41,579 nt of DNA from Clostridia bacterium (lineage in GTDB: Bacteria > Bacillota > Clostridia > Oscillospirales > Acutalibacteraceae). The position numbers and the translations under genes were made by a program. Below, piece after piece: positions 1,018-16,278 of this stretch. The notes beneath the pieces are model-generated. The model did not search any database. It was not told the origin of the DNA and was given only the letters and a program-made list of their open reading frames with translations. The first letter of the stretch is position 1. Each line of letters begins with the position of its first letter. Location: NCBI GenBank assembly GCA_017430145.1, contig JAFRNP010000025.1, forward strand, positions 1-41,579, in the 5' to 3' direction.

Positions 1018-1071
1018 TGGTGCCGGTGGCGGGGGTCGAACCCACATGAACTTGCATTCACTGGCACCTGA
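1018..1071 (-). pseudogene. tRNA-Leu remnant, 3' part (anticodon to CCA)
   Basis: On the minus strand this is 54 nt from TCAGG in the anticodon loop through the 3' anticodon stem, long variable arm, T arm (GGGTTCGACCC) and acceptor end to CCA. It matches the intact tRNA-Leu(CAG) except in the acceptor stem, where it ends CACCGGCACCA instead of CATCCGCACCA. Nothing resembling the 5' half precedes it. Instead the sequence switches abruptly at 1072 to a motif also found next to the 5' tRNA half at 16241. It cannot make a functional tRNA by itself. Confidence 0.85.
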
Positions 1072-1095
1072 TGGTAGCGTTACCTCGGTGAACTC
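1072..1095. repeat. left copy of ~20-bp inverted repeat abutting the tRNA remnant
   Basis: Reading inward from the tRNA remnant the plus strand is TGGTAGCGTTACCTCGGTGA followed by ACTC. The mate lies at 16219-16240 in opposite orientation (minus strand GAGCGTCACCTCGGTGAAAC). The two share ACCTCGGTGAA exactly and AGCGT before it, with one Y difference and one indel. Confidence 0.7.
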
Positions 1096-1148
1096 TTTAT
1101 TTACGACGCCTTATGTTCGCGGATCGTTTATTTTTTCCGTCCTCTCAG

Positions 1149-2306
1149 TTATTCCCAGGTGTCATCCATATCAGCAAAGCGAAAATACAGATCCCACGCG
1201 CCGGCAAGATACCTGCGGCGCAGATCGTGATTGATCCCGTTGATGTTCTTCTGATAATACCGCATACCGTAGCACCATTCGCGCATTTCTTCATATTGAG
1301 GATCCTTCGGATCGTTCAGGATCCTTTGCAGCTCCGCAAAACCGTAGGGGCCGCCGCAGTCCTCCGGCGGCGCGTCTCCGGTCATTTCCGTGCAGACTGG
1401 CGCGGGCAGGTCCGCGTCTTCTATGATCTCCACCAGACGGATCTCATGCTCCCAGCCGTCGCCGAAATCGTATTCGTAGAAGATCCGGTCCGTCCCCGGA
1501 AAAATATCGCGCAGACGGGTTTTCTGCTCGTCAAGCACTTCACAGCCGCGCAAGGCGAAGAAATCTCCCTCCCACATGGACGGATCGGTGACGATCTGCG
1601 CCGGACGGCCGTTCCTTTTCACTTTGGTGATAAAATCGTGGCCATGATAGCCCTGCCACAGGAACAGCTGTTGTATGACGTCGTGCAGATAGTTCATCGG
1701 GAAATCCAGCGGCACCGTCACCCGCCGCACACAGGGCGTGGCCAGCTTCAGCGTCACGTCAAATACCCCTGCGCGGCATTGATACAGCCGCCCGTAACGC
1801 TCCTGCAGCAGCCGCGCCAGCTCCTCATAAACGGCAAAAACTACTTTCTCTCCGTCGACGGTAATCATCCGGAGGTCGTCGTTGATCTTCGGCAGCAGCA
1901 TCGTCTGAAAGGGATCGTTCGGTTCATAACAATTGGTGAACCATTCGATCCGTTTGCAGAATTGGTTCAGCCGGGTCACGGCGGAGCGGTCCGTATTTTT
2001 GCACAGCGTTGCCGGGAAAGCGCAGTCGGCCAGGTACCGGTCGATCACGTCGCCGGAGATGTTTTCCGAGGCCAACACATTCCGCAGCCCGGCTTCCAGC
2101 TTGCTTTGGATGTTCTTTTTATCCTTGGCTGTGATCCCGTACAGGAGGAACCCGCAGCCGGACGCCTCATGGAAGACGGCGATGCACTTTCTCCGGTTCA
2201 GCACCAGAAGGTTGGCGGAAAAGGCAAATAGCGGCTCTTCCGTCCCGGGCGTCTGCGGTGTGATCTCCAGATAGTCCAACAGTTTTTTCGTGCAGCTGAT
2301 TTTCAT
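1149..2306 (-). CDS. DUF6933 / plasmid pRiA4b ORF-3-like protein
   Basis: The 385-residue protein has two parts. Residues 1-~175 resemble DUF6933 (start MKISCTKKLLDYL, then a FSANLLVLNRRKCIAVFHE strand). Residues ~195-340 are the pRiA4b ORF-3 domain, recognised by YDFGDGWEHEI and by PPEDCGGPYGF. The domain is common in accessory DNA and its biochemical role is unknown. The SD is AAAGGAGGAGA. The start ATG overlaps the stop of a preceding reading-frame remnant (ATGA, 2303-2306), so translation was probably coupled to a now-truncated UPF0158 gene. The product is likely cytoplasmic, with no signal peptide. Confidence 0.8.
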   Translation of the reverse strand: MKISCTKKLLDYLEITPQTPGTEEPLFAFSANLLVLNRRKCIAVFHEASGCGFLLYGITAKDKKNIQSKLEAGLRNVLASENISGDVIDRYLADCAFPATLCKNTDRSAVTRLNQFCKRIEWFTNCYEPNDPFQTMLLPKINDDLRMITVDGEKVVFAVYEELARLLQERYGRLYQCRAGVFDVTLKLATPCVRRVTVPLDFPMNYLHDVIQQLFLWQGYHGHDFITKVKRNGRPAQIVTDPSMWEGDFFALRGCEVLDEQKTRLRDIFPGTDRIFYEYDFGDGWEHEIRLVEIIEDADLPAPVCTEMTGDAPPEDCGGPYGFAELQRILNDPKDPQYEEMREWCYGMRYYQKNINGINHDLRRRYLAGAWDLYFRFADMDDTWE

Positions 2307-2368
2307 GCGTCTTTCTCCTCCTTTGGATTTTCGGAAACCGGTCCGATCTGCTCGACGCCGTTTCCCAT
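2303..2368 (-). pseudogene. 3'-terminal remnant of a UPF0158-family gene
   Basis: The minus-strand frame reads MGNGVEQIGPVSENPKEEKD, then A and stop. The intact UPF0158 gene at 5256-5756 ends almost the same way (MENGVELIGPVSDNPEEEND). Only this C-terminal tail survives; further upstream the similarity ends. As in the intact copy, the tail carries the SD of the next gene inside its coding sequence. Confidence 0.7.
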
Positions 2369-2442
2369 GGTAATGTAATGATAATATCCATCAAACAAAA
2401 CAATCAACAAACGAAGGTATCGTCAGATCAATTGATTGGATA

Positions 2443-3294
2443 TCATTCCGGGTGATACGCCGTGCAGGTACATTTTTTGAATTTCAAACCGCTGCCGCAT
2501 GGACAGGGTTCGTTCCTTCCGATTTTCCGTTTTTTGGGGATTGCTGAATTCCGCGAATCCCGCATCAGCATTTCCGCAAGCGTTTCTCTTCCGCCAAACG
2601 GCGCAAAAGCAGCTTCCATTGCCGGTCGGCCGTCCGGAATATCCTCGTCTCTTTCCGGAATATCATCTGACAATACGGGTGGATGCTCGATCTCTGCCGG
2701 AGGCCAGCCTCTTAAAACAGGGTTCGGCATGACAAGGTAGGCCCCGTTGCCCAAATCGCGGAATCGCCGGACCTGATCCACCGTACGGAAATGTATTTTG
2801 CCGTATCGTTCACTTTCAAGAACGCCCATCACCCAGGATTTGTTGTCGCATAACGCCAACGCCTGATGAAATATACAATCGTGGGCAAGTTGTTCACACC
2901 ATTCGTCATCAAGCCCCAACTCTGTCTCGCCGAATTCAATGATTGCGTTTATCACCGGTATGTCTGGCAGTCCGGTTCTCACGGCAATCAATTCCTGTTC
3001 ATCGCAATCGAAGAAAGGTCCGTCAATACGAGCGGCCATAAACGATTCAAAAGCATTGTCGTCTAACGCAAGCAGGTGTTCCGTCACAAGTTCAGGCTCG
3101 TCCAATCCTTCCGTTCCCACACAACAGTGATACCGGAAAATATTCTCCGTGCATCGTTTCAGAACACGGTCGATCTGCGGAGCGGCGACGTCGGGATGCC
3201 AGTCGTGCAGTTTATAAATCACAAACGAAACCGGTACCGACCAGTAAAAATTGGCAAAGGATCCAAAAAGCTCTCCTAATTGTTCATCTGTCAT
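2443..3294 (-). CDS. SEC-C motif protein
   Basis: This is a 283-residue protein. The start at MTDEQL is preferred over an ATG eight codons upstream because GGAGGG lies seven bases before it. The body (1-~200) is an acidic, mostly helical region that I do not recognise. The C-terminus carries a SEC-C zinc motif, EPCPCGSGLKFKKC, then T and C; the usual form ends CC or CH, so the fourth ligand is displaced by one residue. SEC-C tails occur on SecA and on many accessory proteins, where they bind zinc and help contact partners. Its promoter region is nearly the same as that of the AAA ATPase gene at 7425. Confidence 0.7.
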   Translation of the reverse strand: MTDEQLGELFGSFANFYWSVPVSFVIYKLHDWHPDVAAPQIDRVLKRCTENIFRYHCCVGTEGLDEPELVTEHLLALDDNAFESFMAARIDGPFFDCDEQELIAVRTGLPDIPVINAIIEFGETELGLDDEWCEQLAHDCIFHQALALCDNKSWVMGVLESERYGKIHFRTVDQVRRFRDLGNGAYLVMPNPVLRGWPPAEIEHPPVLSDDIPERDEDIPDGRPAMEAAFAPFGGRETLAEMLMRDSRNSAIPKKRKIGRNEPCPCGSGLKFKKCTCTAYHPE

Positions 3295-3362
3295 ACGTTC
3301 GCCCTCCGAATGATTCATCTGAAAATAATAAACAAACCACGGCTAAAATCGTTTTTAATTTT

Positions 3363-3390
3363 ATTATAACGGAAGTACAGAAAAAATCAA
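3363..3390 (-). promoter_or_regulatory. sigma-70 type promoter for the SEC-C gene
   Basis: On the minus strand TTGATT (3385-3390), a 16-bp spacer and TATAAT (3363-3368). About 45 bp around it match the promoter of the AAA ATPase at 7462-7489. Confidence 0.65.
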
Positions 3391-3528
3391 CTGCTTCTCA
3401 TAAAGACAAACGTTTTCTGCCAGGTTCTTCGTACATTTTTATGGGTGACGGCAAAGTCTCCGTGTTCCCGTGTTTATGGCATTGGAAAAGGTCGCTTCCT
3501 AACGGCCGGTACCCTGAGCAAAGATGCG

Positions 3529-5277
3529 CTATTCTTTCCGCCAGCCGTAGCGTTTCAGTGCGGCGGTAAAAGCGTTGTGCCGCGGGAATTGGTCGCGGTA
3601 GATCGTCAGAATACATTGTTTGCCGTCCGGTTCGCCCCGGGACTCGAACACCTCACCCCAGGCGGCCAGGAACGCGGCGCTTTCCTCGTATTGGTTCCGC
3701 TTCTGCTGGGAGACGATTGCCTTTACGCGCAGATCGATCAAAGAACCGATTTTCCCAAAAATGGCCTCCTGCTGTTCCTGCGAGAGAGGGGTTCGGTCTG
3801 TCGTCTGCCGGAACAGCTTCATGAACAGCGCATCATCGCCCGTTCCTTCTGTTGCGCGAAGGCCGTGCATGTAGCTTTCCTCAGTGAAAGAAAGGGCCTG
3901 CATCGCCAACCGGCGCATGGCGGCGCATCCGCTGCCGGTCCTGCCGCTTCGGTCCAGCAACAACAGAAACAGGGCGATGCCGCATTTGAGAAAGGTGTTG
4001 CTCCATCCCAGTGGGGATTTCGCCCGCATTCCCTTTTTCAGAACCGTATCATAATCGCCGTGCAGGAAGAGCACGCCGTAATAATCAAAGACGGTGCAGC
4101 TCCTCCGGCGCAGCTCATCCTCCGCGTTCACCGCAGGCAGATAGCTTCTGTAAGCGTCAGCGGAAGGGGCATGAAGGCTGGAGATGATGTGATCTGCTGC
4201 CGCTTTCCATTTCACACCCTTGCTTTCTCTTACCAGCCGCAGATAATTGACCGCCGACGGATCGGAACGAAACGCCTCCAGCAGGCAGTTGTCAAACGCG
4301 TCCACGGCGTCCGTCGCCGACGCGGCGTGAGCCGTCAGAAGGGCTATTTCGCTGCGGATCACGTAATCCTCCGGGATGTTCGCAAGCGCCTCCTGCCCCA
4401 GCGACAGTTGTTCTCCCGGTTCCCGGTCGGCGCTGTCTGTGAGGAGCTTCCGGTACAGGCAGGGGTGCGTCCGGCTGAATTTTTGCGCGTATGCCCTCAG
4501 TGCCTGCTGATCCGCAATGCCGTCAAACGCCTCCAGGATCAGTCTTTGCGCCGCGGTTCCGGTCTGTGTCCCGAGATAATCGATCCATTGCGGCAAAAAA
4601 GCGGGAACGTCCGGCAGCTCGCGCTGCGCGTGCTGCATCACGTCTTCCAATCCAAGGCCGGAAGACTGCGCCAACCGGAAAAACGCGTACAGCGCCGGCG
4701 CTCTGTCCTGCGGGCCGTGCGCCATATAGGCGGCGTAAAGCGCGTCAAGCTGCACCGAACGGAGGTCTCCGGTCAACAGCTCATATTCAAACAGCGTTCC
4801 CAGCGAGAGATCTTCGTGGTCATAATCGCCTTCTCCATTGACCGTCAGATTCAGCAGCAGATCCGCGATCTCAAAGGCTTCGCGGAAGCGCTCCCAGTCC
4901 AGCAATTCCCGCAGGATCCGGATGGCCTCCCGAATGTCGTCCATCAGATGGTATGGATCCTTATACAGGATCATGGGCACTTCGTCGTTATACCAATCGT
5001 CGTATTCCTCATTGAACTCGCCGACCAGATACCGATCCGGGTCGTCGAACCCGGACAGCTTCTCTTTGATCCGCTCCGCCCTTTTCGCAAGATCCTGCGG
5101 GAGCGGATCGGCGGAGAGGGCCTTCTGCACCGAACTGGCCTCCAGCGATTGGAGGAACACGGTTCGCCGGACCTCCGGCAGTTGACGGGCTTCGTTATGG
5201 ATGAAAGCGGCCAGCGCTTCTTTGGATAACCGCGTTGCCGCTTCATCCACCTGCATTAAAAATTCTGTGATATGCAT
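3529..5277 (-). CDS. large helical-repeat protein of unknown function
   Basis: The protein has 582 residues, is soluble and almost wholly alpha-helical by composition, with many Leu/Ala-spaced segments that suggest TPR- or HEAT-like repeats. No catalytic motif, signal peptide or membrane segment stands out. An acidic patch near residues 80-100 (EFNEEYDDWYNDE) is notable. The start is supported by GGAGGAG about ten bases upstream, inside the preceding UPF0158 gene, which it overlaps by 22 bp. The two are therefore probably translationally coupled and may act together. I do not recognise the family and assign no function. Confidence 0.7.
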   Translation of the reverse strand: MHITEFLMQVDEAATRLSKEALAAFIHNEARQLPEVRRTVFLQSLEASSVQKALSADPLPQDLAKRAERIKEKLSGFDDPDRYLVGEFNEEYDDWYNDEVPMILYKDPYHLMDDIREAIRILRELLDWERFREAFEIADLLLNLTVNGEGDYDHEDLSLGTLFEYELLTGDLRSVQLDALYAAYMAHGPQDRAPALYAFFRLAQSSGLGLEDVMQHAQRELPDVPAFLPQWIDYLGTQTGTAAQRLILEAFDGIADQQALRAYAQKFSRTHPCLYRKLLTDSADREPGEQLSLGQEALANIPEDYVIRSEIALLTAHAASATDAVDAFDNCLLEAFRSDPSAVNYLRLVRESKGVKWKAAADHIISSLHAPSADAYRSYLPAVNAEDELRRRSCTVFDYYGVLFLHGDYDTVLKKGMRAKSPLGWSNTFLKCGIALFLLLLDRSGRTGSGCAAMRRLAMQALSFTEESYMHGLRATEGTGDDALFMKLFRQTTDRTPLSQEQQEAIFGKIGSLIDLRVKAIVSQQKRNQYEESAAFLAAWGEVFESRGEPDGKQCILTIYRDQFPRHNAFTAALKRYGWRKE

Positions 5278-5756
5278 TCGGTATCATTCTCCTCCTCCGG
5301 ATTGTCTGAAACAGGGCCGATCAGCTCGACGCCGTTTTCCATGGCCCATTCAATGGCGAGGCGATAATAAAATCTGTCCCGGTACCACTCCCACTGCGGC
5401 GTCAGGTGCAATCGCCGCAGTTCTCTTTTCGTCCGCTTGACTGCGCCTTTTCCTTGGGTACAGCGCTTGAGCCTGTCGTGCAGCGGCTGATTGTCGATCT
5501 CTTCTATAAAACAACACAGATCGGTATACTCGTCCATGGGACACGTGACGGGCAGAAAGATAAAACGGTTTTCTTCATTATACAGGATCTCATTCAGAAA
5601 ACCGCTTTCGTCCATTTCCGCGTCATGATTTGAAAACCGGTATAACTTACCGCAGCGGATATCAAGATAATGATACAGCCCCTCGCTTTTGCACTGCTTC
5701 AATATGCAAATCAGTTGATTCAACTCTATAGATCGGTTGATTTTGTTTTCCATCAT
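5256..5756 (-). CDS. UPF0158-family protein
   Basis: The protein has 166 residues. The family pattern is visible: LYHYLDIRCGKLYRF near the N-terminus, FIFLPVTCPMDEY at ~70-82, a RLKRC..GKGAVKRTKREL stretch, then WYRDRFYYRLAIEWAMENGV at the C-terminus. UPF0158 proteins are small, cytoplasmic and uncharacterised. The end of the gene overlaps the start of the 582-residue gene and contains its SD. A remnant of a second copy precedes the pRiA4b-ORF3 gene at 2303, so this family has been a repeated upstream partner here. No convincing SD is seen for this gene itself. Confidence 0.75.
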   Translation of the reverse strand: MMENKINRSIELNQLICILKQCKSEGLYHYLDIRCGKLYRFSNHDAEMDESGFLNEILYNEENRFIFLPVTCPMDEYTDLCCFIEEIDNQPLHDRLKRCTQGKGAVKRTKRELRRLHLTPQWEWYRDRFYYRLAIEWAMENGVELIGPVSDNPEEENDTECISQNF

Positions 5757-5819
5757 TCAGTTGTTCTGATATTTTGACTTGAAATGCGTCAATCGGGAAA
5801 AATACAACATGCCAAAGCA

Positions 5820-6134
5820 TTACCGAAAAACAAATCGGATGCGCTCTGTCAGGTCGTCGCTGAACCCATGCAGGTCATCCGGCGTGATGACGTCTTCATT
5901 CAGCAGGGAAAGAATATTCGTGACCATCATCGAGCGGGACATTCTGGCGCATACGCCCGTTTTCTGCCTGTCAGAGCGAATTTCTTTCTCAAGCTCCCAG
6001 AATTTGTCGGAGGCTTTGCCATCGCCGGACAGCAGTTCAGAATACGCTTGGGTTAGACGCTCCATATAAGCCTCCTGCCATCCGGGCAGTTTTTCTCTGA
6101 ACAGTTTCCAATCTCTCTCTTTTGCTTCGTACAT
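5820..6134 (-). CDS. small conserved Clostridia-type protein of unknown function
   Basis: The protein has 104 residues, charged and helical, with no membrane segment. It starts MYEAKERDWKLFREKLPGWQEAYM and has RSMMVTNILSLLNEDVI near the C-terminus. Similar short proteins are frequent in Clostridia; the label multidrug transporter sometimes attached to them does not fit a soluble protein with no transmembrane helix. It sits between the UPF0158 gene and the AAA ATPase on the same strand, with ~65-bp gaps, so it may share the ATPase transcript. The role is unknown. Confidence 0.6.
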   Translation of the reverse strand: MYEAKERDWKLFREKLPGWQEAYMERLTQAYSELLSGDGKASDKFWELEKEIRSDRQKTGVCARMSRSMMVTNILSLLNEDVITPDDLHGFSDDLTERIRFVFR

Positions 6135-6198
6135 ACGCAGAACCTCGTAATTGTGGGTATTGTTGTTATGAGCTGTGGATTCCCTCTGTGGGAAGGCG

Positions 6199-7425
6199 TT
6201 ATATCATCCAAATGGGAATGATATAGGTATTTCGGTCAATAGCGGTCAGTTCTTCGCGCAGGCAAAGGATGGCGCCGACGCCGCGCGGGACGGAGCTTTT
6301 ATCAAGGATTTTAAACGCGCTCGCCAATTCCGAACCGGGATTGGTCGATTTTTTGACCTCCAGCGGATGCAGTTCACCGTCGCTCTCTATGACGAGGTCG
6401 ATCTCATTGGCGTCCTTATCCCGATAATAGTGGAGAAAACAGTCTTTCGCGTCGTTGTGATATGTTTTTATGATTTCGGCGACCGCATAGTTCTCCAGAA
6501 CCGCGCCGTTAAGCGCGCCGTTCATCAGGATCTCCGGGCTGGAATACTTTGTCAGATAGGCGACCAGACCGGTATCAAAGAAATACATCTTCGGCGTTTT
6601 GACCGTTCGCTTCAGCAAATTGTTGGAGTAGGGACGAAGGTAAAAAATTACCCCGGATTTTTCCATCACAGCAAGCCAGCGCTTTGCGGTGTCGTCGGAA
6701 ACGCCCACGTCCTGCGCAATATCGTGTACGTTGAGCATCTGACCGGCGCGGCAGGCGGTGGCGCGGATAAAATCCGCATACTGTAATTTATCCACGCCCG
6801 GTATCATATCCGTCACATCCCGGTCAATGTAGGACTGGATGTAGGAACTGTAAAACACGTCCCGGTCCGTAAACTTACCGCTTCTGTGGCCGGGCATTGC
6901 GCCTTGCCAGATCCGCTCATACATCTGAAGGGGGGAAGCGGAAGCAAGCTGCGTTTTCCGCGCATGCAGGGCGGAAAGGTCAATGGAGAACGTGCTTGTC
7001 GCGCCGTCTGAGTAGAGCTCGCCTTGCGAAAGGGCGGACATATGCAGAATGGCAGTTCTTCCGGCCAGGGATTCCTGGGCGAGATCCATCAGACGGAAGG
7101 CCTGGGAACCGGTAAGCCAATAGGACCCCGGCACGGCGCCGTTGTCGATTTTTATTTTCAGATAGGAAAACAGCTCCGGGGCGTATTGGACCTCATCGAT
7201 CAGCAGGGGGGCGGGATGAATTTCCAGAAACAGCGCCGGATCTGTTTTCGCAAGCTTCCGTTCCTCCACGTTGTCCAAAGAGACCTTTGTCCGGTCGGTT
7301 CCTTCCATCAGGTGTTCCAGCATCGTTGTTTTGCCAACCTGACGCGGCCCGGTCAACAGCAGACAGGCATACTCTCTGCTGACCTGTAATATTTTCGGTT
7401 CTATTGTTCTTCTGATATATGCCAC
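6199..7425 (-). CDS. AAA ATPase with DUF4143 domain
   Basis: The protein has 408 residues. The N-terminal AAA domain has Walker A GPRQVGKTT (about residues 26-34) and Walker B PLLIDEVQ (about 73-80). The C-terminal DUF4143 region ends in a nuclease-like segment (NEIDLVIESDGELHPLEVKKS), in which Asp and Glu-x-Lys resemble a PD-(D/E)xK core. The start is GTG with GGAGGTGG just upstream. These genes are abundant, often multicopy, and of unsettled function. A promoter lies at 7462-7489. The length is normal and all motifs are intact. Confidence 0.85.
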   Translation of the reverse strand: MAYIRRTIEPKILQVSREYACLLLTGPRQVGKTTMLEHLMEGTDRTKVSLDNVEERKLAKTDPALFLEIHPAPLLIDEVQYAPELFSYLKIKIDNGAVPGSYWLTGSQAFRLMDLAQESLAGRTAILHMSALSQGELYSDGATSTFSIDLSALHARKTQLASASPLQMYERIWQGAMPGHRSGKFTDRDVFYSSYIQSYIDRDVTDMIPGVDKLQYADFIRATACRAGQMLNVHDIAQDVGVSDDTAKRWLAVMEKSGVIFYLRPYSNNLLKRTVKTPKMYFFDTGLVAYLTKYSSPEILMNGALNGAVLENYAVAEIIKTYHNDAKDCFLHYYRDKDANEIDLVIESDGELHPLEVKKSTNPGSELASAFKILDKSSVPRGVGAILCLREELTAIDRNTYIIPIWMI

Positions 7426-7461
7426 AATGAACCACCTCCGACCAAAATCGTTTTCAATCTT

Positions 7462-7489
7462 ATTATAGCCGAAATACAGTAAAAATCAA
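7462..7489 (-). promoter_or_regulatory. sigma-70 type promoter for the AAA ATPase
   Basis: On the minus strand TTGATT (7484-7489), 16-bp spacer, TATAAT (7462-7467). Sequence from the -35 to about 25 bp past the -10 closely matches that upstream of the SEC-C gene (3340-3390). Confidence 0.65.
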
Positions 7490-7525
7490 CCGTTTTTCAA
7501 AAAAACACATTTTTTTCACTTTACG

Positions 7526-7690
7526 ATGAAAAAAACAACCAGAATCGGACGTGCCTGCGCCTACATCAAACCGTTGCTCGTCCAGTGCGCCTTGTGTGCG
7601 ATCCGAAAGACATGCAATCCGGAAATCCGTCGCAGCTATGAAAACTTAAAAAAGCGCAGAAACCCACAAAAAGTTATCATTGCCATTGCA
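7526..7690 (+). pseudogene. IS110-family transposase, C-terminal remnant
   Basis: The frame from 7526 reads RIGRACAYIKPLLVQCA, then EIRRSYENLKKRR and KVIIAIAKIF. This is the well-conserved C-terminal (transposase_20) end of IS110 transposases, which carries the serine-recombinase-like half. Only about 50 codons remain, with no N-terminal RuvC-like domain. It runs head-on into the PIN toxin gene and marks the point where that gene is cut. Confidence 0.75.
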
Positions 7691-8538: not shown

Positions 8539-8540
8539 TC

Positions 8541-8961: not shown

Positions 8962-9963
8962 TCATTTCACAGCCTCCCCGATTCCCTGTGAGGGATGATT
9001 CTGCCGCAGGTCAAGGGTAAATACGCTGCCTTTCCCGACCGTGCTTTCGACGGTGAGGGAAATGGAAAGCAGGTCCGCGGCCTTTTTGCCAAGATACAGC
9101 CCCAGCCCGCTGGAGGCCTGCCCCAACCGGCCGTTGCATCCGGTATAGCCCATCTCAAAAATGCGGGGCAGATCCTCCGGCGCAATACCCACCCCGGTGT
9201 CGGAAACCGTCAGCAGACCGTTATCAAAGGCGATCCCGACCGTGCCCTCCGGCGTGTATTTGACCGCGTTTGACAGCAGATGATCGAGGATACAGGCGAA
9301 CCATTTCCGGTCCGTCACCACCATGGCGCCGGTGGGGGCATAATCCAGCCGCAGACGTTTTTCCACGAACGCCGCCGCCTGCTTGCGCACCGCCTCGCGG
9401 ATCAGCTCGTCCAGCGGGTATTCCCGGATCACCAGATCGTTGGTCTCGCTGCCGATGCGGATGTACTGCAGCGCCATCTCCGCGTATTGCTCGATGCGGC
9501 TCAGCTCGGCGGACAGGGCCAGGTGCTCCGGCGTGTCGTCGGATAGCTTCAGCTTCATCACGGCGATGGGCGTTTTGATCTGGTGCACCCACGCGGTGTA
9601 GTAGTCCACCATATCCTGCCGCTCGGCGTCGGTTTCCGCCGTCAGCCGTTCCAGCTCCGCGCCGAGGGCCGCGATCATTTTCCGGCAGTCCTCCTCGGCA
9701 AGGGAACGGGGCTCCGGCAGCGCGCGCCATTCGGAGACGACGGCAGCAAGCGCGCGGGAGCGCTCGTCCGCCCGCCTTTTTTCCCGGACAAAATCGACGG
9801 CCAGGAGCGCTGCCAGCAGCAAAAAGGACAGGACTGCGGCGTAGAGCAGCGGCTCCGTCAGGATATCGTACAGGAGAAAGACCGCCGCGTTGAGCAAGGT
9901 CGCTGCGGCAAACAGGACCAGCGCCGCGCGGTTTTTTCGCAACACCTCTTTGAAAATCTTCAT
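8962..9963 (-). CDS. BceS-like intramembrane-sensing histidine kinase
   Basis: The protein has 333 residues. Two N-terminal transmembrane helices (about 12-34 and 38-57) are separated by only a few residues, so there is no extracellular sensor, as in BceS/VraS-type kinases that sense through their partner exporter. The H-box is HQIKTPIAV with His127, followed by an N-box (LLSNAVKYT) and DTGVGI. It overlaps the response regulator gene by four bases and is last in the order ATPase, permease, regulator, kinase. In known systems of this layout it responds to peptide antibiotics such as bacitracin or nisin; the actual ligand is not predictable. Confidence 0.9.
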   Translation of the reverse strand: MKIFKEVLRKNRAALVLFAAATLLNAAVFLLYDILTEPLLYAAVLSFLLLAALLAVDFVREKRRADERSRALAAVVSEWRALPEPRSLAEEDCRKMIAALGAELERLTAETDAERQDMVDYYTAWVHQIKTPIAVMKLKLSDDTPEHLALSAELSRIEQYAEMALQYIRIGSETNDLVIREYPLDELIREAVRKQAAAFVEKRLRLDYAPTGAMVVTDRKWFACILDHLLSNAVKYTPEGTVGIAFDNGLLTVSDTGVGIAPEDLPRIFEMGYTGCNGRLGQASSGLGLYLGKKAADLLSISLTVESTVGKGSVFTLDLRQNHPSQGIGEAVK

Positions 9964-10631
9964 GGAATGATGTACCCGCTTCCCGGTTTCGTGATAATGA
10001 CGTCAGTCATGCCCAGCGTTTCCAGCTTTTTGCGCAGCCGCGTGACGTTGACCGTGAGGGTGTTTTCCTCCACATAGCAGTCGTCGTTCCAAAGCCGCAG
10101 CATCAGCGCGTCCCTGCTGACGATCTTCCCCCGGTTTTCCAGCAGCGTGCGCAGGATGCGGAACTCGTTTTTCGTCAGCTCCACCCGCCCGCCGCCGCAG
10201 GAAACGCTGCCGTCGTTCAGGTCCAGCGACGCGCCGTGGAACGTCAGGGTCTGGGCGGCGCCATTCATCTCATACGCGCGCCGCAGCACGGCCTGCACCT
10301 TGGCGTTCAGCACCATGGGCTCCACGGGCTTGGCGATGAAGTCGTCGCCGCCCATGTTGACGGCCATGACCAGGTTCATCCCGTCGCTGGCGGAGGAGAG
10401 GAACACGATGGGAACGGAGGTGAATTTCCGCAGTTCCGCCGTCCAGTAATAGCCGTTCTGATAGGGCAGCATGATATCCATCAGCGCCAGATGCGGTTCG
10501 TATTCGCGGAATTCCTCCGTCACGGCGCGGAAGTCGCTGACGATCCGCGCCTCGTTGCCGTACTGTTCCAGCTGCTTTTTCAATTCCAGCGCCAGCGCGC
10601 GGTCGTCCTCTACAAGAAAGATACGGTACAT
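9960..10631 (-). CDS. BceR-like OmpR-family response regulator
   Basis: The protein has 223 residues. The receiver domain (1-~115) has the acidic pair ED at 8-9, phosphoacceptor Asp52 (LMDIMLP) and the KP motif near residue 100. The OmpR/PhoB winged helix (~130-223) carries ELTKNEFRIL and the recognition region ENTLTVNVTRLRKKLE. It pairs with the kinase it overlaps. A box of the BceR type lies before the ABC genes at 13554-13567, so it most likely activates its own operon. Confidence 0.9.
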   Translation of the reverse strand: MYRIFLVEDDRALALELKKQLEQYGNEARIVSDFRAVTEEFREYEPHLALMDIMLPYQNGYYWTAELRKFTSVPIVFLSSASDGMNLVMAVNMGGDDFIAKPVEPMVLNAKVQAVLRRAYEMNGAAQTLTFHGASLDLNDGSVSCGGGRVELTKNEFRILRTLLENRGKIVSRDALMLRLWNDDCYVEENTLTVNVTRLRKKLETLGMTDVIITKPGSGYIIP

Positions 10632-10643
10632 GGGGTCATCCTT

Positions 10644-12719
10644 TCAATGCACGATTTTATAATACGTTTTTGCCGTCAGCACGTACACCGCAGTGTAAAC
10701 CAGCGCGAACACCGCAAGGGTAACGAGCGTGCAGATGATAAACAGTGACGTGTTGGTCAGCATCAGTATTTTCAGCAGTTTCAGCAGGATCGGAAACGCC
10801 ACTGCCGTGTGGACGGCTGCCGTGGCAAGCGGCAGGAAAAACTGCAGGACCAGCTGGCTGCCGATGGTCTTTCTGACCTCCCGCGCGTCCATCCCAACCT
10901 TTTCCATGATCTGGAACCGCTCCCGATCCTCATACCCTTCCGAGATCTGCTTGTAATAGATGATGAGGATGGTGGAAAACAGGCACACGAAGCCCAGCAG
11001 GATGCCCAGAAACAGGAAAGTGCCGTACATTTCCAACACGTTATGCAGGCTTTCCCATTTGGTGTCGAGGTCGTATTGCAGCGTTCCGGTCCCGACGGCT
11101 TGCAGCTTGTTGACGATCGCCTGCGAGACCTGTTCGCCCACGGCGCTGACCGCTTCCTCGTCGGCAAAGCTTACGCCGATGCGGTCCGAAAACTCGCTTG
11201 CAAATTCGCCGTAGGCCTCCTTCTGCGCGAGGTAGACGTCATTCAATACGTCATCGTCAGCCACCACGATCCCCAGCACGTTCACCACCGTGCTCATGTT
11301 GCTGCCGATGGGGAAATAGGTCAGATTCTCTTTTACGCGGTAGGTATTGCCGTGAAAGGTCAGCCTCTCCGGCATGAATCCCAGATCCATGGCGGCGGAA
11401 GCGACGCGACAAAAGGCGATCTCGTCCTTGTCAAGCCCCAACCCTTCCGGCGCGCGGGACAGCGCCGGATCCTCTGCCGTCACCCTTTTGCTCTGCAGCT
11501 CCGCATACGTGTCCTCGGTGATGAACATGACGCTGCACAACTCCGACGTATCGTAGCCGCCCTCGGCTTCCGTTTTCGTCAGCAGCCTGCCGCCGCGCAG
11601 CAGGTAGGAGACGGTCAGCAGCCGTTCGCTTTCCACCTCCCGTACCGCCACGCCGTTTTCCGCGGCGGCCTCCCGCACGAGCTCTTCCAGCTTTCCGGAG
11701 GGAATATGCGTGATCTCCTCGCCCTCCTGCCGATATGCGGAAAGATAGAGCTGCCGGGGATAGTTGGTCTCCATGGTGTCCTGCACGCCGCTGTAAAGGC
11801 TGACGGTGGTGGAGATCATCACCAGCACCCCGGTGGCCAGAATCGCGATGGAGGCCAGCCCCACGGCGTTCTGCTTCATACGGAACAGCAGCCCCGCCAC
11901 GGCGGGCATATGTTTTTTGTGATAGTAGTATTGTTTTCTCTTTTTGAGGCTCTGCAGCACGAAAGTCGTTCCCGTCACGAACACGCAGTAGGTGCCGACG
12001 ATCACGAGGATCACCGCCGCGAAGAACAGGAAGATGGCCTGCAGAGGGCTTTTGACGGTCAGGGCGATGCCGTACCCCGCGCCCAGCGACAGCACGCCGA
12101 GGACCAGCAGCGGCCATCTGGTTTTCGGCTCCCGTTCGCCCGCCTTCTTCGCGGAAAGCAGCTCCACCGGCTTCATGCGGAGGATGGCAATCCGGTTGAC
12201 GAAATAGGTAAACAGATCCAGCGCCAGGAACGCCGCCGCGGGGATCAGCAGGGTGACCGCGTTCAGGTAGTAGAAACCCGCCACGATCTCCGAACGCAGC
12301 AGCCTGCAGATGAGCAGGGAAGACAGCTTATAGAACAGCACCCCGAAGCACAGGCCCAACGCCACGGACGCCAGCGAAGCGATCAGCGATTCGGCAAACA
12401 GCACTTTTGCGATATGGCGCTTTTCCATCCCCAGCACGTTGTAAAGGCCGTATTCGCTCCTGCGGCGCTTCATCAGAAAGCTGTTGACGTACAGGAGCAG
12501 GATGAGGGAGAGCAGCCCCAGCACGGCGGCGCCCATCCACATGAAGGTGGGCAAATACGCCCCGCCCAGCGCCTCCGAAAGCCTGCCGTCCATGGCCAGC
12601 GTGATGAGGATATAAAAGCAGCCCAACAGACCTGCCTCCGCCAGAATGCGCGGCCAATATAACCGCCCGTTCTTTTTGACGTTTTCAAGGGCGATTCGGG
12701 TATACAATCCTTTTTTCAT
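10644..12719 (-). CDS. BceB-like ABC exporter permease (FtsX family)
   Basis: The protein has 691 residues. About ten hydrophobic segments are visible: one near the N-terminus (~30-50), FtsX-type groups at ~65-220, and three at the C-terminus. Between about residues 310 and 530 is a large hydrophilic extracellular domain, the hallmark of BceB and the part that senses peptide antibiotics. The SD is GGAGGTGA. It lies seven bases after the ATPase gene and 12 before the regulator, in one operon. The length is typical for the family. Confidence 0.9.
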   Translation of the reverse strand: MKKGLYTRIALENVKKNGRLYWPRILAEAGLLGCFYILITLAMDGRLSEALGGAYLPTFMWMGAAVLGLLSLILLLYVNSFLMKRRRSEYGLYNVLGMEKRHIAKVLFAESLIASLASVALGLCFGVLFYKLSSLLICRLLRSEIVAGFYYLNAVTLLIPAAAFLALDLFTYFVNRIAILRMKPVELLSAKKAGEREPKTRWPLLVLGVLSLGAGYGIALTVKSPLQAIFLFFAAVILVIVGTYCVFVTGTTFVLQSLKKRKQYYYHKKHMPAVAGLLFRMKQNAVGLASIAILATGVLVMISTTVSLYSGVQDTMETNYPRQLYLSAYRQEGEEITHIPSGKLEELVREAAAENGVAVREVESERLLTVSYLLRGGRLLTKTEAEGGYDTSELCSVMFITEDTYAELQSKRVTAEDPALSRAPEGLGLDKDEIAFCRVASAAMDLGFMPERLTFHGNTYRVKENLTYFPIGSNMSTVVNVLGIVVADDDVLNDVYLAQKEAYGEFASEFSDRIGVSFADEEAVSAVGEQVSQAIVNKLQAVGTGTLQYDLDTKWESLHNVLEMYGTFLFLGILLGFVCLFSTILIIYYKQISEGYEDRERFQIMEKVGMDAREVRKTIGSQLVLQFFLPLATAAVHTAVAFPILLKLLKILMLTNTSLFIICTLVTLAVFALVYTAVYVLTAKTYYKIVH

Positions 12720-12725
12720 GGCCGT

Positions 12726-13481
12726 TCACCTCCCCGTGCGCAGCATCGTGAGGGTGTCGGCGATTTTTTTATACAGCTCCTCGTTGGTGCTGTCGCCCCG
12801 GTAGAGCTGGTGGAAGACCACGCCGTCCCGGATAAACAGCACCCGTCCCGCGTGGGAGGCGGCGTCCGCGGAGTGGGTGACCATCAGGATGGTCTGCCCG
12901 TTCCGGTTCATCTGAGAAAAGACCCGCAGCAGCTCCGCGGAAGACCGGGAATCCAGCGCGCCGGTGGGCTCGTCCGCCAAAATCAGCTTCGGGTTCGTGA
13001 TCAGCGCCCGCGCGGCGGCGGCCCGCTGCTTCTGCCCGCCGGAGACCTCGTAGGGGTATTTGTTCAGAATCTCCGCGATGCCAAGCGGCCCCGCCGTCTG
13101 CATCAGCCGCGTCTGCATTTCGGAGACGCTTTTCCCGCCCAGCACCAGCGGCAGCAGGATGTTGTCCTTCAGCGTGAAGGTGTCCAGCAGGTTGAACTCC
13201 TGAAACACAAAGCCCAGGTTCTCCCGGCGGAAAGCGGCCAGCTCGTTTTCCTTCACCGCGTCCAGCCGCTTGCCCTCCAGCTCCACGCAACCGCCGGTGG
13301 GCTGATCCAGCGCCGCTAAAATGTTCAGGAGCGTAGTTTTGCCGGAGCCGGATTCGCCCATGATGGCCACGTATTCCCCGGCCTCCACGGTAAAGGTGAC
13401 GCCCTTGAGCGCCTGCACCTGCGCCCCGCCGAGGCGCGACGTGTACGTTTTTTTCAGATCGTTGACCTTTAAGATTTCCAT
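12726..13481 (-). CDS. BceA-like ABC transporter ATPase
   Basis: The protein has 251 residues starting MEILKVNDLKKTY. This start was chosen over a longer frame because GGAGG lies nine bases upstream and it matches the usual family start. Motifs are Walker A GESGSGKTT (about 42-50), signature VSGGQKQRAA, Walker B LILADEPTG and the switch His in MVTHSADAA. It belongs to the MacB/LolD/BceA group that drives FtsX-type permeases. It is first in the four-gene operon and directly downstream of the likely BceR-controlled promoter. Confidence 0.9.
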   Translation of the reverse strand: MEILKVNDLKKTYTSRLGGAQVQALKGVTFTVEAGEYVAIMGESGSGKTTLLNILAALDQPTGGCVELEGKRLDAVKENELAAFRRENLGFVFQEFNLLDTFTLKDNILLPLVLGGKSVSEMQTRLMQTAGPLGIAEILNKYPYEVSGGQKQRAAAARALITNPKLILADEPTGALDSRSSAELLRVFSQMNRNGQTILMVTHSADAASHAGRVLFIRDGVVFHQLYRGDSTNEELYKKIADTLTMLRTGR

Positions 13482-13514
13482 TCGCTGTTTCCTCCGTTTC
13501 GTTTTTACGGGTTC

Positions 13515-13567
13515 ATTATACCGAAACGGTCGTCCGCCCGACATCGAAACAGGTGACATTCATGTGA
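13515..13567 (-). promoter_or_regulatory. BceR-type box and promoter of the exporter operon
   Basis: TGACA TTCA TGTGA (13554-13567) fits the known BceR-type consensus TNACA-N4-TGTAA with one mismatch. Downstream on the minus strand is TATAAT (13515-13520) with no recognisable -35, as expected for an activator-dependent promoter; the box centre is ~40 bp above the -10. Confidence 0.55.
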
Positions 13568-13599
13568 CAGTTTTGTAAGGTGCGGGAATCCGGTCGGAT

Positions 13600-14088
13600 T
13601 CAGTCCCTGCCTGACCGGATCAGGTGCCCTTCCTGAATGGCGGCGAACGTCGCGACCGAGCAGACGACGGCTGCCGGATATTGCAGCCCGATCCAAGAGA
13701 CCGTCAGCGGCAGCGCGAACAGCAATACGCCCGTCGCCTTATTCATTACGGTATGCGGGGCGATCCATCTCTTCCGGACCGCGAACCCGGAAATCACGTT
13801 GACGACCTTGATCAGGGCGATCAGACCGGTCCAGATGAAAAGCCAGACCGGAGGCTTCAATATCGGCAGCAGTTTGATCAGGCAAACCGCAACAAATACG
13901 ACGTCCGCGATCGTATCCAGCTTTGCGCCGAATTCGCTTTCCGTGCCCGTTTTCCGTGCCGCCGCGCCGTCGATCATGTCTGTCAGTCCGGCGGTGAGAT
14001 AGAGCGCGCAGAACACGGGGGAAAACGTGGAAAAAAACAACAGCGCGATGCTGAGCACGATTCTGATTCCGGTTATGATATTTGCCAT
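13600..14088 (-). CDS. CDP-alcohol phosphatidyltransferase family membrane protein
   Basis: The protein has 162 residues and is strongly hydrophobic, with five or so membrane helices. The CDP-alcohol motif D-G-x2-A-R-x8-G-x3-D-x3-D is present as DGAAARKTGTESEFGAKLD followed by TIAD. It transfers a phosphoalcohol from a CDP-linked donor, as PgsA does for phosphatidylglycerophosphate, but it is shorter than housekeeping PgsA (~180-200) and lies in an accessory operon, so the substrate is open. It starts two bases after the GNAT/VOC gene and is last in the TetR-led transcript. Confidence 0.8.
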   Translation of the reverse strand: MANIITGIRIVLSIALLFFSTFSPVFCALYLTAGLTDMIDGAAARKTGTESEFGAKLDTIADVVFVAVCLIKLLPILKPPVWLFIWTGLIALIKVVNVISGFAVRKRWIAPHTVMNKATGVLLFALPLTVSWIGLQYPAAVVCSVATFAAIQEGHLIRSGRD

Positions 14089-14089
14089 G

Positions 14090-14728
14090 TTATACCAGCG
14101 TCCCCACTTCGATCAGATTTCCGTCCGGATCATAAAAGCGTATGACTTTCTGCCCCCAGTTGTGCGTCATGAGCCTGTTGACGTATTTTACTTCCGGATC
14201 ATACTTTTCAAGCCGTTCGATAAAACCTTCAATTTGAATATCAAAAGGTTCATCTTCTACACAGGAAGATATCGGATGTTCACTCAGTCTGAAGCCCATC
14301 GCGTTGTAAAAATCAATGGTTTCCTCAGCAGAACAGCAGGATGCGTACAGAGCAGAAGCCCCACGGCCTCTTGCATAATCAGCGACAGTTTCAACCAGCC
14401 GTCGTCCGATTCCGCACCGTCTGAACTCACGGGAAACATGAAAACTGTCAATGATAAGGCGATTCTCGTTAAGTTCCGGTATCAGCATGATTTCACCAAC
14501 GACCGCATCTCCCTCAAATGCGCAGAAGGTAATATATCTGCCGGACAGTATCTCTCCCGCCTTTTTGCGCCTCTGTTCGGGCGACCAGGTTTCGGTAAAG
14601 GGTTGAAAATTCAAAACGAGTCTGCCGTTTTCTATGCGCCAAACATTCTGAACCTCTTGAAATCTATCAAATGAATCCATTGACGTTTCGCAGAAATTGT
14701 TTCTGTCCGCCTGTTTGATTTCAATCAT
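14090..14728 (-). CDS. GNAT acetyltransferase fused to the C-terminal end of a VOC (glyoxalase-like) domain
   Basis: The protein has 212 residues. Residues ~1-160 form a GNAT domain with the acetyl-CoA loop RRCGIGRRL (about 107-115) and a typical end (FYNAMGFRLSE, then DEPFDIQIE). Residues ~170-212 are not GNAT: KYVNRLMTHNWGQKVIRFYD followed by PDGNLIEVG is the last strand pair of a vicinal-oxygen-chelate protein, with the final metal-ligand Glu in IEVG. Only about one third of a VOC domain is present, so the chimera probably arose by recombination and the tail may be inactive. Confidence 0.75.
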   Translation of the reverse strand: MIEIKQADRNNFCETSMDSFDRFQEVQNVWRIENGRLVLNFQPFTETWSPEQRRKKAGEILSGRYITFCAFEGDAVVGEIMLIPELNENRLIIDSFHVSREFRRCGIGRRLVETVADYARGRGASALYASCCSAEETIDFYNAMGFRLSEHPISSCVEDEPFDIQIEGFIERLEKYDPEVKYVNRLMTHNWGQKVIRFYDPDGNLIEVGTLV

Positions 14729-14741
14729 GATGATCAGAACC

Positions 14742-14825
14742 TCACTTGTATTCCATCGGGGTAAAGCGGATGTTCAATCCCTCCTGTCCTTTTGAAAGCA
14801 TTGACCGGATCATGGATTTCATCAT
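14742..14825 (-). CDS. 27-codon ORF coupled to the isochorismatase gene
   Basis: It starts at an ATG overlapping the upstream stop (TGATG) and reads MMKSMIRSMLSKGQEGLNIR then FTPMEYK. It ends 13 bases before the GNAT/VOC gene. The stop-start overlap argues for translation by coupling, but no SD or homologue is known to me. It may be the remnant of a longer gene. Confidence 0.3.
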   Translation of the reverse strand: MMKSMIRSMLSKGQEGLNIRFTPMEYK

Positions 14826-15316
14826 CAACCCGTCAAGGCGGCCAGAGGCCCGACCTTGCAGCCCTTATCCGCATAATACACAAGCATTTCGGGCAATTTC
14901 TTCAGATCGTAGCTGGTAACGCAATCGGAGATGACGTGCACGGCAAATCCCGCTTTGGCCATGTTGTAACAGGTGGATTTTACACAGGCAGTAGCGTCCG
15001 CGCCGGTGATATAAAACGTATCGATGCCGTTGTCCCGGATAAACGCGGAGAACGGTTCGCTCGTCAGCGCGTTGGCCTTCGTCTTGACAAAGACGTTGTC
15101 CGATACGACGTTCAACTCCGGCGCAAGCTCCGCTCCCTTCGTGCCCGGCTTGAACGTCCGGGTGCCGTCGGACAGATTGTGATGCTTGATATAAACAACC
15201 GCCATTCCCTGCGCCGAAGCCCATTCGACCGCGGCATTGATATCGCCGATGATATCCCGGTAGTGTTTGGTGATATCGTTCTGAATATCGATCACAACAA
15301 GCGCTTTCTTACTCAT
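14825..15316 (-). CDS. isochorismatase-family cysteine hydrolase
   Basis: The protein has 163 residues. The Asp-Lys-Cys catalytic set of the family is visible: Asp10 (VVIDIQND), Lys80 (VKTKANALTSEPF) and Cys111 (GADATACVKST). Members hydrolyse isochorismate, nicotinamide, or N-carbamoyl and other amides; the short form and context do not settle which. The start overlaps the TetR gene's end by eight bases, and the gene is followed by a coupled tiny ORF. Under control of the adjacent TetR it could be a detoxifying enzyme. The enzyme fold is sure, the substrate not. Confidence 0.85.
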   Translation of the reverse strand: MSKKALVVIDIQNDITKHYRDIIGDINAAVEWASAQGMAVVYIKHHNLSDGTRTFKPGTKGAELAPELNVVSDNVFVKTKANALTSEPFSAFIRDNGIDTFYITGADATACVKSTCYNMAKAGFAVHVISDCVTSYDLKKLPEMLVYYADKGCKVGPLAALTG

Positions 15317-15911
15317 GGCCCGCCTCTCCGTAAATGCTGATAAAATGTCTGCTGAAGGCTTCGATCTGCGCCATGGCCCCGTCCGTTTTCTCCGGCTCCC
15401 GGTCGCAGAGGTGAATCAGAGCGGAAATCGGCGCGGTGTAGGCGAAGGCCAGCATGGCGGGATCGTCTTTTTTGAGCAGGGCCTTTTCCATCATGCCTGT
15501 GAAGATCCGTGTAAACATGTCTGTAAGACCGGTCAGGAAGTGCTTTGTCGCCAGTTCCCTGGCGCGCGGGTCTCGGAACTGCTCAAGTGTGAGCACCTTG
15601 CGCGTCATGGCGATTTTTTTATCGTGAACGGTGACGTTCACCATCCGCATGGTCAGCCGGGTCAAATCCTCCGGCGAATCCGGCACGGGCGGCAGACGGT
15701 CTGCGGACCCGAAGCGATCTGCATAATAAGCAATCATCTGATCCAGCAGCGCATTCCAGATGGCTTCCTTGCTCTCATAGTGTTTATAGACGCCGGACTT
15801 CACAAGCCCGAGCGACGCGCTCAATTCGCGGATGTTTGTCCCGGCATAGCCGTTTTGTGAAAACATTTCCAACGCGGCTTCCAGGATCCTCTCTTTTGTG
15901 TCGTTCGCCAT
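15309..15911 (-). CDS. TetR/AcrR-family regulator
   Basis: The protein has 200 residues from MANDTKERIL. This start is preferred over one four codons upstream because GGAGGG lies six bases before it. The N-terminal helix-turn-helix (about 25-45, TNIRELSASLGLVKSGVYKH) is typical; the C-terminal ~150 residues are the helical ligand domain. Its own promoter contains a perfect 16-bp inverted repeat (15934-15972), so it almost certainly represses itself and the following isochorismatase, GNAT/VOC and CDP-alcohol transferase genes. Confidence 0.9.
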   Translation of the reverse strand: MANDTKERILEAALEMFSQNGYAGTNIRELSASLGLVKSGVYKHYESKEAIWNALLDQMIAYYADRFGSADRLPPVPDSPEDLTRLTMRMVNVTVHDKKIAMTRKVLTLEQFRDPRARELATKHFLTGLTDMFTRIFTGMMEKALLKKDDPAMLAFAYTAPISALIHLCDREPEKTDGAMAQIEAFSRHFISIYGEAGHE

Positions 15912-15933
15912 AATACCCTCCACATATAACAGA

Positions 15934-15979
15934 GTGACCTTTCGTTCACCATTATAGTGAACGAAAGGTCACTTGTCAA
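15934..15979 (-). promoter_or_regulatory. TetR operator overlapping the operon promoter
   Basis: The minus-strand promoter is TTGACA (15974-15979), 17-bp spacer, TATAAT (15951-15956). Arms GTGACCTTTCGTTCAC (15934-15949) and GTGAACGAAAGGTCAC (15957-15972) are perfect inverted repeats with a 7-bp centre that holds the -10. A repressor bound here would block polymerase directly. Confidence 0.85.
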
Positions 15980-16016
15980 GTTTTTGCTTCACTTTTTTCA
16001 TCCGGCTGTTTCGGAG

Positions 16017-16061
16017 CAAAAAAAATCTCCACGTAAATCCTATCGAAATTAACGTGGAGAT
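16017..16061 (-). terminator. terminator of tRNA-Leu(CAG)
   Basis: Ten-base perfect arms ATCTCCACGT / ACGTGGAGAT (16025-16034, 16052-16061), followed on the minus strand by eight T. Confidence 0.85.
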
Positions 16062-16062
16062 A

Positions 16063-16149
16063 TGGTGCGGATGACGGGAGTCGAACCCACATGAACTTGC
16101 ATTCACTGGCACCTGAAGCCAGCGCGTCTGCCAATTCCGCCACATCCGC
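16063..16149 (-). tRNA. tRNA-Leu, anticodon CAG
   Basis: 87 nt with encoded CCA. The acceptor stem GCGGATG / CATCCGC is perfect. The anticodon stem CTGGC / GCCAG holds loop TTCAGGT, giving CAG; a long variable arm follows, then the T arm GTGGGTTCGACTCCC. Its 5' part is repeated as a tRNA half at 16241-16278, just upstream on the same transcript. The nearest promoter is above that half, so the working tRNA must be processed from a transcript that also contains the half and the 91-bp insert. Confidence 0.95.
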
Positions 16150-16240
16150 GTATTGAATTTTCACCGTTAAATTTTACTCGGCACGGTGATCCGAGAGCGG
16201 GGCCATTCTGAGATCGGGAAGTTTCACCGAGGTGACGCTC
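16150..16240. other. 91-bp insert between tRNA 5' half and intact tRNA, ending in an inverted repeat
   Basis: On the minus strand it begins GAGCGTCACCTCGGTGAAAC, the mate of the repeat at 1072, abutting the tRNA anticodon loop. It then contains a small hairpin CTCGG CACGGTGAT CCGAG (plus strand, 16177-16195) and a second CGGTGAAAA motif near its end. No gene, promoter or terminator is visible. Confidence 0.6.
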
Positions 16241-16278
16241 CCTGAAGCCAGCGCGTCTGCCAATTCCGCCACATCCGC
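16241..16278 (-). pseudogene. tRNA-Leu(CAG) 5' half, positions 1 to 38
   Basis: Identical to the first 38 nt of the intact tRNA-Leu, from GCGGATG to the anticodon loop CTTCAGG, where the sequence departs into the 91-bp insert. With the 54-nt 3' part at 1018-1071 it adds to 87 nt after removing the shared TCAGG. The acceptor strands do not match, however (GCGGATG here, CACCGGC there). Confidence 0.85.

Follow-up and report, generated by a model that had tools for sequence, protein, structure and literature searches.

The window analysed here, a 41,579-nucleotide stretch of a metagenome-derived genome from the Clostridia (Acutalibacteraceae), very probably carries a 15.2-kb site-specific mobile island (1072-16240) that sits in the anticodon loop of a host tRNA-Leu(CAG) gene and supplies a complete tRNA. 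Judged by sequence comparison, the host tRNA gene is truly split. Its two displaced fragments bracket the island, each joined to one of a pair of inverted arms, and an intact tRNA-Leu(CAG) gene, absent from an earlier note on this DNA, lies 91 bp inward of the 5'-half junction. The window lies on contig C173 of an assembly (G000) of 3.03 Mb in 180 contigs, which is 86.6% complete.

A tRNA-Leu gene split at the anticodon loop

The two displaced fragments add up to one whole tRNA-Leu (54 + 38 - 5 = 87 nt), with TCAGG as the overlap. The earlier note had reported both halves, their sum and this overlap, and its coordinates and sequences agree with a comparison to the intact gene (Table 1). On the minus strand, the right junction begins with promoter-like boxes, continues through the 38-nt half ending in CTTCAGG and enters GAGCGTCACCTCGGTGAA, which opens a 91-nt stretch followed by the complete tRNA-Leu(CAG). 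The left junction (1092-1018) reads TTCACCGAGGTAACGCTACCA-TCAGG and then continues as the remaining tRNA-Leu with its CCA. The claim that the same motif stands inverted at both breaks is borne out, as the stretches 1073-1092 and 16223-16242 are 90% complementary over 20 nt in inverted orientation. Within the whole 3.03-Mb assembly the 17-nt motif AGCGTYACCTCGGTGAA is present at two sites only, which are the window junctions, and its reversed control does not occur.

The four differences between the window's 3' part and the intact gene all fall within the last 17 nt, where they convert the tail to the tRNA-Leu(CAA) type, and the acceptor stem formed by the displaced halves pairs at 5/7 positions. 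The earlier note attributed the acceptor strands to different isogenes and counted this against a single insertion. The mismatch comes down to the four substitutions in the tail, while the displaced halves of G216, G221, G395, G030 and G151 pair at 7/7. The CAA-type tail is either a later local exchange or an assembly join inside the tail.

The intact gene is the sole CAG tRNA among the 21 tRNA matches in G000, where the other leucine tRNAs found are CAA, UAG and UAA; the tRNA-Leu(UAG) might read CUG too. The displaced 5' half is thus an extra copy 129 bp upstream of a whole tRNA-Leu(CAG) gene. A promoter-like site between the 5' half and the intact tRNA was looked for in the window and none was found, so the element's tRNA is probably expressed from the host promoter. 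The earlier note had proposed a comparison with strains having an empty tRNA-Leu site. G215 and G217 lack the insertion: both carry a single intact tRNA and no extra half, and their promoter-like boxes, identified by eye, run directly into that tRNA at the contig end.

Table 1. Features of the split tRNA-Leu locus and the island in the window
Feature	Position	Strand	Evidence or remark
Displaced tRNA-Leu 3' part, core TCAGG to CCA	1018..1071	-	50/54 identical to intact gene; last 17 nt of tRNA-Leu(CAA) type
Element arm P (TTCACCGAGGTAACGCTACCA)	1072..1092	-	Inverted repeat of P'
Cargo, 16 open reading frames scanned with Pfam	1149..15923	-	12 matched, 4 unmatched; no recombinase match
Complete tRNA-Leu(CAG) inside the element end	16063..16149	-	ARAGORN; Rfam 51.6 bits
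Leader stretch matching pseudoknot model R1	16159..16217	-	Described in the text
Element arm P' (GAGCGTCACCTCGGTGAA)	16223..16240	-	Inverted repeat of 1073-1092
5'-half junction, core TCAGG meets arm P'	16236..16245	-	Same junction in 8/26 genus genomes
Host tRNA-Leu(CAG) 5' half, displaced, with its end (TTCAGG) at the anticodon loop	16241..16278	-	38/38 identical to intact gene
Sigma-70-like promoter match of the host tRNA gene, TTGACA-17-TAAAAT	16313..16341	-	11/12 consensus positions; a consensus match, not proof

Recurrence of the junctions and movement of the island

A search of relatives, suggested in the earlier note, was carried out in 26 genomes of the window's genus by a BLAST-type search and inspection of the retrieved loci. 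The 5'-half junction, followed by the same 91-nt stretch and an intact tRNA, is present in eight (G000, G204, G206, G214, G216, G218, G219 and G221). Eleven genomes have no complete extra half by sequence (G076, G187, G200, G201, G203, G208, G210, G211, G212, G215 and G217), and the remaining 7/26 were judged from the BLAST table alone. The 3'-half junction was found in four genomes (G000, G216, G219 and G221), all within the set of eight (hypergeometric P = 0.005, for related genomes that are not independent events). Since both junctions recur in other assemblies, their pattern is beyond chance. The earlier description of one element with inverted-repeat ends meeting the tRNA at TCAGG in the anticodon loop is supported. 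The 3' half matches the 3' part of the intact gene at 54/54 positions in G216 and 50/54 in G221, and is degenerate and without CCA in G219. In G204 the 5'-half junction is kept and no 3' half was found by pattern search. Two stacked 129-bp units occur in G214, with the first half truncated or eroded, and an eroded leader precedes the unit of G216.

The wider family was represented by 398 genomes. DNA similarity to the 91-nt stretch was detected in three of them, one match being a 37-base piece. The pattern 5' half-TTCAGG-arm, with up to three mismatches, matched 33 genomes, which were assigned by eye to 19 real junctions in 13 genera, 11 ordinary intact tRNAs, two halves broken without an arm (G241 and G292) and one chance match (G250); 18 of the 19 junctions, those of G000, G204, G011, G259 and G320 among them, were inspected in sequence and the other, in G369, is known as a pattern match only. 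These junctions involve tRNA-Leu(UAG) as well as tRNA-Leu(CAG). TCAGG was previously described as a 5-bp target duplication. The breaks in the tRNA-Leu 5' halves fall at one and the same position across 13 genera, which fits a core common to site-specific attachment sites better than the duplicated target of a transposon. The pattern arm-CAT[C/T]AGG-3' half, with up to two mismatches, matched 9/398 genomes compared with three for the reversed control. Seven of the nine matches continue as a tRNA 3' half (G000, G030, G098, G105, G151, G162 and G395), and those in G081 and G339 do not. Both junctions are present in four genomes, i.e. 4/7 with the 3' junction among the 19/398 with the 5' junction (P = 0.0001; these genomes too are related and not independent).

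Three of these relatives are especially informative. The clearest is G030, whose contig C14 carries both junctions on the same strand, 22 kb apart, bracketing an island; the intact tRNA-Leu(UAG) of that island is identical to the displaced halves (38/38 and 52/52). The two displaced halves agree with each other in G395, as they do in G151, while the locus has a clearly different working tRNA (30/38 and 37/54 identical to the halves in G395), so the complete tRNA arrived there from outside. Acceptor-stem mismatch was also tried as a general proof of whole-tRNA arrival and was partly useful. The 26 loci submitted gave 24 rows (none for G011 and G369), with 4/7 pairs in G192, 5/7 in G151 and, counting wobble, 6 or 7 of 7 in the other informative rows, the last of which also fit replacement of the 5' half only; the rows for G406 (2/7, eroded half) and G078 (2/7, gene cut by the contig end) are uninformative. 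It is G395 and G151, each with its old 3' half located, that decide whether a whole tRNA arrived.

The idea that the motif is a dispersed repeat was rejected: with one mismatch allowed, 15/200 family genomes match (including G000), and the 15 places outside G000, like the third place inside it, are all away from tRNA halves. A looser pattern gave 59 stretches in a collection of genome contigs that may omit records close to the window's genome, and L125 (= G219:C201) was the only one at a tRNA half. A search of plasmids gave one weak 75-base match in one record.

The island itself has moved, as can be seen from its identity to relatives inside and outside its ends. The main blocks are shared with G216 at 92-94% identity, and with G221 at 91-95%, whereas outside the island the best match is 70% in G216 (the gene just beyond the right junction) and 72% in G221 (another stretch), these being best matches and not necessarily orthologues. 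The Pfam matches of the cargo include TetR, isochorismatase, GNAT/glyoxalase, CDP-OH transferase, ABC and FtsX, as well as a response regulator, a histidine kinase, MazE-like, AAA_14/DUF4143, SEC-C and DUF6933-PRiA4. Content is modular: the AAA_14 gene is missing in G221, and in G216 it is followed directly by the 3'-half junction. Pairs of direct repeats just upstream of island genes (2310-2370/5284-5344, 85%; 3327-3416/7426-7515, 77%) suggest modular gain.

Beyond the left end, AT-rich short repeats (ATTTAACGATTAC-like) at 745-870 adjoin the displaced tRNA tail. Contig G219:C188, on which a serine recombinase match was also found, has a similar array next to a CCACCGGCACCA tail. At the contig start (1-363) the window encodes an Mrr-type restriction endonuclease domain with the first 19 profile positions missing.

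Proposed recombination at TCAGG, its candidate enzyme and alternative explanations

The junctions could be produced by a single reaction, in which an element site, [arm P]-TCAGG-[arm P'], would recombine with the host site, [5' half]-TCAGG-[3' half], to give 5' half-TCAGG-P' at one end and P-TCAGG-3' half at the other. The host promoter, the 5' half, the leader and the new tRNA would then form one transcript, from which the usual 5' processing would release the tRNA. Exchange between the 3' half of the element's tRNA and the displaced 3' half could later remove the cargo, so that only a 129-bp scar would remain in front of a working tRNA, and repeated rounds could stack such scars, as the loci in G204, G214 and G216 suggest.

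The arms P and P' are inverted repeats with a common 3-nt offset in all seven elements tested (G000, G216, G219, G221, G395, G030 and G151). Between 14 and 18 of 22 positions match, values that shuffles reached 0-2 times per 5000; four of the seven elements come from the window's genus and are related, and they do not amount to seven independent tests. The offset centres the dyad on the first two core bases, TC or TT, in 7/7 predicted sites. The attP sites of large serine recombinases are approximately 50 bp long, with a dyad whose centre is a 2-bp core that attB also has. The symmetric arms appear to resemble such a site, a likeness that is no proof of one.

An enzyme of this class is present in the complete island of G030, which encodes a resolvase-recombinase-zinc-ribbon protein (a large serine recombinase) and a MobA relaxase. 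The closest relative of the recombinase with a solved structure is TnpX, and the G030 recombinase is 72% identical to a G192 protein and 56% identical to a G216 protein, both encoded downstream of the tRNA in those genomes. Ten other proteins of the G030 island were scanned without a recombinase match (4/10 had no match at all), with the transporter and two-component genes outside the scan. A TnpX-like large serine recombinase, as in G030, is the leading candidate for the integrating enzyme, with the chances for and against it evenly balanced. A motif-like site lies just upstream of the recombinase gene in G030 and G192, which is suggestive only.

Several observations weigh against a mobile island of this kind. 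Among the 16 scanned open reading frames of the window island, four of them without any match, no recombinase was found, and contig C173 has no match to a tyrosine integrase (PF00589) or a large serine recombinase (PF07508), in keeping with the earlier statement that no recombinase is intact inside. No motif-like site was seen at the G216 recombinase gene, and in G192 the intact tRNA and the recombinase are separated by a tRNA tail, so the enzyme possibly belongs to a nested element. For half of the eight genomes of the genus that carry the 5' junction, pattern search gave no 3' junction; these may be scars or cases of missing contigs. The 3' half in G395 is inverted relative to the 5' half, and the two junctions of G151 are on different contigs. 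The matches outside the island may not be orthologous, as mentioned above, and in G216:C77 a window-homologous block stops precisely at position 16063, where the tRNA has its 3' end, with no intact tRNA nearby, so other events may have brought in some of the cargo. Pattern scans of genome contigs and viral contigs found no free attP.

Two alternatives are improbable to a similar degree. The first is a classical tRNA island, with the intact tRNA (16063-16149) and the 3' fragment (1018-1071) as direct-repeat ends and the extra 5' half as an unrelated leader duplication. The stretches 965-1079 and 16010-16124 are indeed direct repeats (115 nt, 81%), the end of the G216:C77 block would fit such a boundary, and ordinary tyrosine integrases lie near tRNA-Leu(CAA) and tRNA-Leu(UAA) in G000. 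This explanation does not account for a 3' fragment that starts at TCAGG after an inverted arm copy in seven elements, nor for the old halves in G395 and G151, which match each other and not the working tRNA. The second alternative dispenses with a 15-kb mobile unit and invokes separate small inverted-repeat insertions, or tandem duplication of the leader and 5' half, followed by recombination. A related rival, two insertions of a small repeat, was raised in the earlier note; it is the weaker explanation, but the stacked units in G214 and G216 do show local duplication or repeated insertion. The four stacked halves before the intact tRNA in G259 and the 5' junctions without a 3' junction are in its favour. 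Against it stand the first 5' half in the window, which, unlike a simple duplication, has no leader before it, the co-occurrence of both junctions, their presence on one contig with identical halves in G030, and the movement of the cargo between them.

Two further possibilities are very unlikely. The halves could belong to a split tRNA of the kind known from Nanoarchaeum, its two separate transcripts base-pairing via the arms before trans-splicing; the arms are complementary in 7/7 elements, but the intact tRNA-Leu(CAG) means that the halves are not the sole source, the window acceptor stem pairs imperfectly, the G219 3' half is degenerate, the first G214 half is truncated, and bacteria are not known to possess the archaeal splicing enzyme. 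An assembly artefact joining separate tRNA loci might be suspected from the 180-contig metagenome assembly and the CAA-type tail, inside which a wrong join could lie, but both junctions occur in other assemblies, and on one contig in G030.

An H-type pseudoknot, made up of CUCGG with CCGAG and a second helix, lies in the 91-nt leader between the 5'-half junction and the intact tRNA. Across ten hand-chosen sequences all six pairs of helix 2 are changed on both sides; 16 such cells were counted, and shuffles averaged 6.4. The same ten sequences served to derive the structure, and one of them, G076a, is out of register by one. The measure of further pair types was no better than shuffles (261/500). 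The pseudoknot model matched 75/300 family genomes at E <= 0.1, many of them weakly. When 30 of these loci (L174-L203) were opened, a tRNA-Leu lay downstream on the same strand, CAG in 29 and UAG in one, and the leader is sometimes in tandem. No Rfam family for the leader was found in the stretches scanned. The folding energy of leader plus tRNA is no better than shuffled (z -1.20; leader alone -0.26), so the fold alone lends no support, and the pseudoknot depends on the covariation in the ten sequences. The minimum-energy structure even pairs the extra 5' half with the tRNA 3' end.

A broader proposal is tentative and somewhat less likely than its contrary: a family-wide system in gut Clostridia, in which TnpX-like serine recombinases, and not tyrosine integrases, would target the anticodon loop of tRNA-Leu(CAG) and tRNA-Leu(UAG). 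Each element would swap in a promoterless tRNA copy; cargo, scars and single-gene units would stack upstream of the working tRNA and be read from the captured tRNA promoter; and the conserved pseudoknot leader would keep broken 5' halves from misfolding the tRNA.

Other units were seen at tRNA-Leu loci of the family. A second type of broken 5' tRNA-Leu is cut in the D-loop at GGCAG and continues as a structured insert of about 110 nt ending near ACGCG (L186, L187, L190, L184 and L179); such fragments are in tandem in L186, L187 and L184, and G219:C188 (L096) has a related insert close to tRNA-Leu(CAA)-type tails. Elsewhere a broken tRNA 5' half and the tRNA-Leu that follows it enclose single small genes in a cassette-like row (L234, L248, L235, L236, L237, L238, L240 and L246). 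These include an FMN reductase, a 23S rRNA intervening-sequence protein and others, and the intervening-sequence protein occurs in two genera, at tRNA-Leu(UAG) in G259 (by eye) and at tRNA-Leu(CAG) in G417. A long hairpin follows the tRNA terminator in L081, L082, L084, L085, L086, L234 and L242, with a stem that copies the tRNA D-arm (TTGGCAGACGC with GCGTCTGCCAA).

Relation to known systems

Like some of the relatives, integron cassette arrays consist of single-gene units, which in the relatives are set among consecutive broken 5' halves and ahead of the working tRNA; unlike integron cassettes, these units end in tRNA halves. The G030 island resembles TnpX-type elements (Tn4451) in its recombinase and the nearby MobA relaxase. 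Tn4451-type elements use GA targets with little specificity, and none is known to target a tRNA anticodon loop. A serine recombinase gene inside the element is present in the complete G030 relative and was not found in the window island.

The closest known mechanism is the tRNA-dependent lysogeny described for actinobacteriophages, in which a host tRNA gene is split and a replacement is supplied (Guerrero-Bustamante and Hatfull 2024; PMC10865867). Both systems integrate in a host tRNA gene through a short core that does not rebuild the tRNA, and in the window and its relatives the split gene is likewise accompanied by a complete tRNA of the same isotype, a foreign tRNA-Leu in G395 and G151. 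The actinobacterial cases, as presented in that report, are phages with a tyrosine integrase, cores of 8-10 bp in the examples given and a phage tRNA with its own promoter (PMC10865867). The window and its relatives are instead islands and mobilizable elements with a 5-bp core, symmetric inverted arms and a candidate serine recombinase; in the window the tRNA lies 91 bp inside one end without a detected promoter, and no tyrosine integrase was identified among the 16 scanned reading frames, four of them unmatched.

Islander-type islands share with the window a tRNA target, commonly an anticodon-centred site, and displaced fragments that mark the ends (PMC4383910). In those islands, as the Islander paper describes them, a fragment carried by the element rebuilds the gene (PMC4383910), whereas in the window a complete gene was brought and two displaced host fragments bracket it. 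ICEMh1 is also similar, in that the tRNA-Leu anticodon loop forms the direct repeat and one functional and one partial tRNA-Leu remain; according to its description, it differs in an 11-bp repeat, putative tyrosine recombinases, a UUG isoacceptor and a host in the Pasteurellaceae (PMC6861422). No like case was found in the titles and abstract openings searched, with most subscription journals outside the search. Splitting and replacement of a tRNA are already known from actinobacteriophages; what seems new here is their occurrence in islands of gut Clostridia, with no tyrosine integrase found in that of the window.

By this reading, tRNA-dependent integration, so far described for phages, would also operate in chromosomal islands and mobilizable elements in many genera of one family. 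If a serine recombinase is truly responsible, it would break the rule stated in the Islander paper that only tyrosine integrases are known to target tRNA genes (PMC4383910). The replacement tRNA is placed so that the host's own promoter can be borrowed; loss of that element end is therefore potentially costly, and the tRNA locus becomes a repeat landing site.

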